NCBI GenBank assembly: GCA_026414565.1
Contig: JAOAIT010000024.1
Location: forward strand, 1-55,498
DNA length: 55,498 nucleotides
Reading direction: 5' to 3'
From: Verrucomicrobiia bacterium
GTDB lineage: Bacteria > Verrucomicrobiota > Verrucomicrobiia > Limisphaerales > Fontisphaeraceae
Shown here: one piece after another, positions 46,670 to 47,047 of the stretch
Numbering within the stretch: the first letter of the stretch is position 1
Layout of the letters: every line of letters begins with the position of its first letter
Notes under the pieces: generated by a model
Seen by the model: the letters and a program-made list of their open reading frames with translations, nothing else
Told to the model about the DNA's origin: nothing
Databases searched by the model: none
Made by a program: the position numbers and the translations under genes

Positions 46670-46719
46670 GCCCCAGCTTGCTTCACCGGTTACTTCCCCC
46701 TCCCCCGGCCGCCCCCCGC

Positions 46720-46780
46720 TAAAAGCAAAAGCCAGAGTTAAATGGACCTCGGTTGCACCCAACCCATGTAACTCTGGCTT
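46720..46780 (-). terminator. Intrinsic terminator after the lysine-rich gene
   Basis: AAGCCAGAGTTA (46729-46740) and TAACTCTGGCTT (46769-46780) form a perfect 12-base stem. On the minus strand the loop contains an inner hairpin (GGTTG-GGTG-CAACC), and the stem is followed by TTTTGCTTTTAGC, a good T tract. It sits 18 bases after the 21-residue protein's stop. This is the strongest terminator in the window. Confidence 0.88.
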
Positions 46781-46798
46781 GTTGGTTAAAGGTTCAGG

Positions 46799-46864
46799 TT
46801 ATTTCTTCTTCTTGGCGGCTGCCTTCTTCTTGGCAGGCGCTTTCTTCGCCTTCTTATCGGCCAT
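46799..46864 (-). CDS. 21-residue lysine-rich protein
   Basis: The tiny frame starts at the ATG at 46864 and encodes 21 residues, 11 of them Lys. It reads MADKKAKKAP, then AKKK, and ends AAAKKKK. The upstream AAGGAGGTGA (46871-46880) is a near-perfect Shine-Dalgarno sequence, nine bases before the ATG, which is exceptional in this window, where most genes lack a clear one. The gene has its own promoter candidate (47017-47047) and a strong terminator. The AAKK repeats resemble histone-H1-like and HU tail sequences, so DNA, RNA or ribosome binding is plausible, but no family is established. I am confident that it is translated, but not of its role. Confidence 0.75.
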   Translation of the reverse strand: MADKKAKKAPAKKKAAAKKKK

Positions 46865-47005
46865 CGTGTTTCACCTCCTTTCTGCGCAAACTTGCGTCGG
46901 GAGAGAGAGGAGAGAAAATCACGCTTCCTTGAATACCGCCGGAGGAACCAGAAGAGACAAACCACCCTGCGGCTTCTGGCGTGCACCGCGCAGGCTGCTG
47001 ATGGT

Positions 47006-47028
47006 GTGTCATGGCATTTATATGACAC
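47006..47028. promoter_or_regulatory. Inverted repeat over the -10 of the lysine-rich gene promoter
   Basis: GTGTCAT (47006-47012) and ATGACAC (47022-47028) are exact 7-base arms with nine bases between. They overlap the -10 element of the candidate promoter, a standard repressor position. Confidence 0.45.
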
Positions 47029-47047
47029 GCTCCGCTGCTTTCGTCAA
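47017..47047 (-). promoter_or_regulatory. Promoter candidate for the lysine-rich small protein
   Basis: Read on the minus strand, TTGACG (47042-47047) is followed by TATAAA (47017-47022) with a 19-base spacer, or by CATATA with 17. The -35 is a 5/6 match. It would start a leader of about 145 bases before the ATG at 46864. Confidence 0.5.

Follow-up and report, generated by a model that had tools for sequence, protein, structure and literature searches.

A conserved lysine-rich mini-gene of 21 codons in a Verrucomicrobiia bacterium and its look-alikes in other phyla

The stretch of DNA analysed here (the window: 55,498 nt, JAOAIT010000024.1 of assembly GCA_026414565.1, from a Verrucomicrobiia bacterium of the order Limisphaerales, family Fontisphaeraceae) contains, as read from its sequence, a complete small unit on the minus strand (Table 1). 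At the heart of this unit is a mini-gene that starts with ATG and encodes a peptide of 21 residues, 11 of which are lysine and one aspartate, giving a net charge of about +10. The Shine-Dalgarno (SD) region is separated from the start codon by 6 nt, and the frame is followed by a short linker and a terminator whose fully paired 12-bp arms are followed by TTGCTTTTAG. If transcription starts just behind the TATAAA box the leader would be ~140 nt long. The 191-nt stretch of the locus that was folded gave -60.6 kcal/mol against -51.2 (s.d. 3.9) for shuffled sequences (z -2.45), with 2 of 200 shuffles folding as well. A first-pass annotation, made from the letters alone, had described a 21-residue frame with 11 lysines, a near-perfect ribosome site and a perfect 12-base-stem terminator with a T tract, all of which were borne out. 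Its promoter candidate held in part; the TTGACG and TATAAA boxes are present and are unaltered in G001 (the congener), the only further member of the genus among the genomes searched, but a strict sigma-70 scan found no promoter, and the two boxes are thus best described as a plausible candidate. The terminator hairpin does not appear in the output of the terminator scan because its loop is too large for the range that the scan accepts (3-8 nt). Within the window no Rfam family reached its gathering score and no tRNA or tmRNA was found. On the same strand, 3' of the mini-gene, lie two long ORFs that read as putative sugar-degrading enzymes and a LacI/AraC-like regulator; the gene that directly follows the mini-gene is presumably the regulator, judging by ORF reading, and likewise in the congener.

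Table 1. Coordinates of the mini-gene unit and the ORFs that follow it in the window.
Feature	Position	Strand	Basis
Complete small unit	47047 -> 46719	-	sequence reading
Candidate -35 box, TTGACG	47042..47047	-	sequence; same in congener; missed by strict scan
Candidate -10 box, TATAAA, 19-nt spacer from TTGACG	47017..47022	-	same in congener; missed by strict scan
SD region AGAAAGGAGGTGA, complementary over 13 nt to the 3' end of this genome's 16S	46871..46883	-	
21-aa ORF MADKKAKKAPAKKKAAAKKKK, stop TAA	46799..46864	-	identical in congener; similar ORFs in other families
18-nt post-stop linker, predicted SD pairing partner (hypothesis)	46781..46798	-	fold; mixed statistics
Intrinsic terminator: perfect 12-bp outer stem, structured loop, TTGCTTTT tail	46719..46780	-	sequence, fold, congener
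Terminator arms	46780-46769 and 46740-46729	-	
Two ORFs, 827 and 831 aa	40315-46669	-	

The SD region of the mini-gene is the exact reverse complement, over 13 nt, of TCACCTCCTTTCT within the 3' end of the 16S from this assembly (L327), which reads GGATCACCTCCTTTCT. The window has a single copy of the portion AAGGAGGTGA (46880-46871), where dinucleotide shuffles predict 0.02. It should be emphasized that the short core GGAGGTG is common in this DNA (48 sites, of which 44 are on the minus strand, against an expectation of 11.65), and therefore only the long SD match is informative. The best possible SD, combined with a terminator of its own, would favour strong translation of a short mRNA, and the window mini-gene is probably strongly translated.

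Comparison with the congener provides evidence of constraint on the locus. The G001 locus displays 89% identity over 328 bases, and the DNA from the SD through the stop is 100% identical, such that all 21 codons are the same. The changes fall in the loop and flanks, leaving the stem and the T tract, as well as the promoter boxes, unaltered. In the adjacent regulator 39 of 67 conserved K/A/P/D residues retain an identical codon, and in pnp 133 of 205; 35-42% of comparable codons are thus altered in these two genes, and the chance that 20 codons remain unaltered is ~2e-5 at the regulator's rate and ~2-3e-4 at that of pnp. The comparison shows that the mini-gene DNA is constrained beyond its amino acids, through codon choice, RNA structure or both. 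When the 328 bases were used as a DNA query against 58 genomes, five matched, the window's own among them; L003 and L005 are true relatives besides the congener, and L004 and L006 were rejected as K-rich stretches of other proteins. The only same-family genome outside the genus, G002, gave no match by either the 328-base DNA search or the SD/K-rich pattern search, nor does a mini-ORF precede its exonuclease (L258; see below). The proposal that this is a genuine small gene is upheld by the identical frame in the congener and by the retention of the peptide kind in other families, but G002 showed no copy. On these comparisons the window mini-gene is genuine and conserved. A frame disrupted in close relatives with the hairpin kept, which the first-pass annotation had named as grounds for rejection, was also looked for and was not seen; other families retain this type of peptide with an altered hairpin sequence.

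Mini-genes of this kind recur across the order, as the suggested search for the same signals in related genomes revealed: SD, frame and hairpin are found together. A pattern comprising an SD plus M-x-x-K-K matched 63 sites in 61 of 293 genomes, compared with 7 of 293 for the reversed-pattern control. When 59 of the 63 sites were read, 43 belonged to the mini-gene family and 16 were other genes, five of which were rejected as a second type of K-rich-start gene. This second type (L030, L035, L037, L048 and L049) recurs in the order, encodes ~100 aa, resembles MAAKKK...RLWLMYPPKLI, and has the SD GGAGGTTAATC or similar. A typical member of the mini-gene family in the order begins M[AP]AKKK..., has the SD GGAGGTGA, and is followed by a hairpin and often by a gene beginning M..LVFDIET, whose product falls in a Pfam family of predicted 3'-5' exonucleases akin to the PolB exonuclease domain (PF10108, E 5e-17). 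Of the 146 genomes of the order, 135 have the PolB-like exonuclease, and its upstream DNA could be read, over up to 900 bases, without an SD being required. The sample comprised 110 loci from the 135 genomes, reduced to 104 by removal of three without a start motif and three with <250 bases upstream; of the other 25 genomes, 9 were excluded since the adjoining mini-gene was already known and 16 lay outside the sample. A K-rich mini-ORF was found in 53 of the 104 regions and in none on the opposite strand (0/104). In 48 of the 53, although the SD formed no part of the search, GGRGGTGA lies 5-10 nt before a start, and two of the remaining five have GTGGGTGA or AGAGGTGA within the stretch read. 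An acidic control pattern matched 17 of 142 order genomes, with the GGAGGTGA core in 0 of 20 sites. The 84 distinct genes of the order (59 starting with ATG, 25 with GTG) encode 13-134 aa, and 85 members representing these 84 genes consist of 50% K, 32% A and 6% P. In the window's own genome the exonuclease is on a different contig (L105) and lacks a preceding mini-ORF. The mini-gene is not indispensable, at least by these searches, because it is absent from G002 and from 51 of the 104 pre-exonuclease regions. Across the home phylum the pattern search matched 8 of 387 genomes, the window's own plus seven others, with no same-class entry among the matches; five of the seven (L108, L109, L110, L112 and L114) hold a K-rich low-complexity protein.

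The mini-genes are generally followed by a predicted hairpin. After near-identical loci had been collapsed, as was done for the pairing comparisons below, z values for the post-stop fold were below -1.5 at 36 of the 38 non-redundant loci from the order and at 64 of the 81 from elsewhere, and a stem of >=6 bp with a T-rich tail was present in 31 of 38 and 59 of 81, respectively. The stem CAGGATGG/CCATCCTG occurs in 20 of the 84 order genes, its upper part varying in sequence and largely staying paired, while other clades have different stem sequences. In the predicted fold of the window locus, the SD pairs with the 18 nt that follow the stop codon. Across the 38 order loci each SD paired better with its own post-stop sequence (first 20-30 nt) than with swapped ones (z -4.7, compared with -1.6 for the reversed SD), the mean SD-core pairing probability behind the stop was 0.53 against 0.42 when swapped, and bases flanking the SD core add to the pairing. 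In a larger set of 46-58 loci the corresponding z was -3.7 to -4.4, with the SD predicted to be masked in 22-27 loci; the case for masking is weaker because the reversed control was also negative here (-2.4 to -3.2). Outside the order there was no SD/post-stop pairing signal (p about 0.26). Masking of the SD by post-stop sequence is thus a hypothesis for which these models are suggestive only. IhtA/hctA was weighed as a precedent for SD masking and set aside. In the Eisenbacteria loci L340-L350, GGACCTGGCACGTCC recurs between stop and terminator as a conserved small hairpin.

Look-alikes extend far beyond the home phylum. When GTDB species genomes were scanned with the pattern GGAGGTGAN{3,10}ATGSCNRCNAARAARAAR, in which the SD, unlike in the pre-exonuclease set, belongs to the search itself, at least 119 stretches matched. 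Of the 119 matches listed, 102 code for low-complexity proteins rich in K, and 95 of these proteins are <=60 aa (median 22). Again among the matches listed, the look-alikes fall under at least ~18 phylum-level names, which were taken from 80 of the 119 stretches, and include bacteria (Eisenbacteria, Chloroflexi, Nitrospirae, Acidobacteria, Omnitrophota, Zixibacteria, Fibrobacteres, Eremiobacterota, Dadabacteria, Methylomirabilis, Auribacterota, Actinomycetota, Deltaproteobacteria, Phycisphaerales and several Patescibacteria) and archaea (Diapherotrites, Woesearchaeota and Pacearchaeota); individual assignments may be wrong because nearly all of these genomes are metagenome bins. Presence is uneven, with 22 of 47 genomes in Eisenbacteria (the phylum of L119) compared with 3 of 145 in Moraniibacteriota (that of L130). 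In a viral-contig control 2 of 10 stretches passed the K-rich filter, most being unrelated proteins. Common descent and convergence between phyla cannot be told apart from low-complexity sequence of this type. The window mini-gene represents, as judged by these matches, a type of minimal gene rich in lysine codons that is widespread, reaching further than the first-pass annotation stated. Small clusters also occur: six loci (L133, L137, L149, L158, L210 and L213) have two or three K-rich mini-genes no more than a few hundred bases apart, every copy preceded by an SD.

The neighbours of the mini-genes outside the order, called heuristically at 87 loci, are diverse. A TIGR00375-like protein (below the model cut-off) lies on the opposite strand, by motif, at 11 of the 87. 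The TIGR00375 group is known as endonuclease Q. The convergent arrangement is seen in Patescibacteria-type loci (L123, L126, L132, L136, L150, L152, L164, L178, L189, L224 and L232), in which this protein is a constant neighbour. UvrA is a neighbour by motif in four loci, confirmed in L206 and also read in L342 and L348, and others include UDG (L196), a RecA domain (L210), SecA, PrmC, riboflavin synthase, MotA/ExbB and LpxC. The occurrence of DNA-repair neighbours in separate lineages is suggestive at most. The variety of neighbours counts against a leader peptide that serves one regulated gene.

With respect to function, we propose that the mini-gene encodes a stand-alone, disordered polycation of the smallest size, akin to the tail of histone H1, which is strongly translated and binds nucleic acid by charge, a reading to which we assign a probability of roughly 0.58. 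The peptide would bind DNA and/or RNA through charge alone, compacting or shielding the nucleic acid, and selection would act on charge density and not on sequence or length. The peptide is likened to an H1 tail because its charge, its K/A/P composition and its repeat-based change in length, which spans 13 to 134 residues in K/A/P repeat-like steps among the genes of one order, are shared with Hc2 and the AlgP tail. The window peptide itself has no match in Pfam or NCBIfam. The best of the longer relatives tested, the 81-aa protein of L110, scored 25.1 bits against HC2 (cut-off 40; E 2e-5), 17 against NF038053 (cut-off 80) and 14.1 against NF038052 (cut-off 135). No tested member reaches the curated cut-offs of the HC2/H1-like models (PF07382, NF038052 and NF038053), and by this test the window peptide is not an HC2 member. 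Composition, the sub-threshold likeness of L110 to the H1 models and repeat-driven length change point to nucleic-acid coating as the likeliest function. The first-pass annotation had raised this role together with modulation of the ribosome, for or against which the comparisons do not speak.

The main rival to the H1-tail-like polycation is a tiny accessory ribosomal protein that threads rRNA in the manner of mycobacterial bS22 and bL37 or eukaryotic eL41. It could be argued that the size and basicity of the peptide resemble those of these proteins, and that a very strong SD fits a high-copy product; in addition bS22 occupies the place of eL41 near the decoding centre, and bL37 lies near the peptidyl transferase centre (PMC6133939). 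A repeat-like sequence that spans 13-134 aa in a single order, however, is unlike a part built for a single site, presence is patchy, and no solved chain matched the window peptide in a phmmer search at E up to 10, a program that is weak on 21 low-complexity residues. We view a ribosomal role as unlikely. Slightly less probable again is that the locus acts as a regulatory RNA or leader peptide, in which lysine codons or SD/post-stop pairing would act on the terminator or on the gene that follows, with little part left for the peptide. Consistent with such regulation are the predicted pairing of the window SD behind the stop, the preference of the 38 order loci for their own post-stop sequence together with the contribution of flank bases, the same-strand exonuclease that follows in much of the order, and the absence of any codon change in the congener, which points to constraint on the RNA as well. 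A leader of this type would be expected to precede one conserved same-strand gene, but what follows is the exonuclease in much of the order, the regulator in the window's genus and elsewhere varied genes or genes on the opposite strand. The pairing evidence is itself qualified by the negative reversed control in the 46-58 loci, in which 22-27 are predicted masked, and by the lack of signal outside the order; furthermore, the frame is retained between families while codons and hairpins differ.

That the polycation serves polyphosphate or other polyanion granules, and not the nucleoid, is improbable. AlgP is found at polyphosphate granules, whose spacing depends on its H1-like KPAA tail (PMC9239181), but AlgP has an additional N-terminal domain, and the surroundings of the mini-gene contain no polyphosphate hint. 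It is hardly credible that the frame is a chance low-complexity ORF; frames of 21 codons are common, but mini-ORFs occupy 53 of the 104 pre-exonuclease regions compared with none on the control strand, SD, frame and hairpin recur jointly, and the acidic control, despite matching in 17 of 142 genomes, never displays the GGAGGTGA core.

A wider proposal, which we advance more tentatively than the H1-tail-like reading of the window peptide, is that the look-alikes constitute an undescribed class of genes of ~12-60 residues, consisting almost only of Lys and Ala with Pro, Thr and Val, which have a near-perfect anti-SD match and usually their own terminator, and which occur under ~18 phylum-level names that include archaea. 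Such genes may be among the most strongly translated of their genomes and might act as a prokaryotic 'protamine' for packaging nucleic acid by charge alone, with SD/post-stop tuning in some clades. We found no description of such mini-proteins in searches of open-licence PubMed Central papers. If the peptides are as abundant as their expression signals imply, length-based gene calling has overlooked a plentiful basic protein in many uncultured lineages, and, if the proposal is true, about a dozen residues would suffice as the minimal functional unit of an H1-like protein. The signature of an SD and a K-rich mini-frame makes such genes easy to find.

Protamines are tiny stand-alone polycations that pack DNA through charge, and are arginine-rich and eukaryotic; the window peptide resembles them by description, in size and charge, and is lysine-rich. 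In its shortness and strong basicity it is also like bTHX, eL41 and the mycobacterial proteins bS22 and bL37. These ribosomal proteins are not known to be repeat-like or variable in length, whereas the mini-genes are both, and the window peptide matches no solved chain. In their K/A-rich composition, repeat-built sequence and variable length the mini-genes resemble Hc2/HctB of Chlamydia and its relatives. Hc2 binds DNA and differs in length via lysine-rich repeats, but measures 165-237 aa in C. trachomatis, in contrast with the 21 aa reported here (PMC2848022). The mini-genes likewise share a K/A/P-rich, disordered and polycationic character with the C-terminal KPAA tails of AlgP and PhaF from Pseudomonas, and peptides from the AlgP tail bind DNA (PMC9239181). 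In AlgP and PhaF the tail is joined to an N-terminal domain (PMC9239181), whereas in the window the tail-like part stands alone, in a frame of 21 aa.
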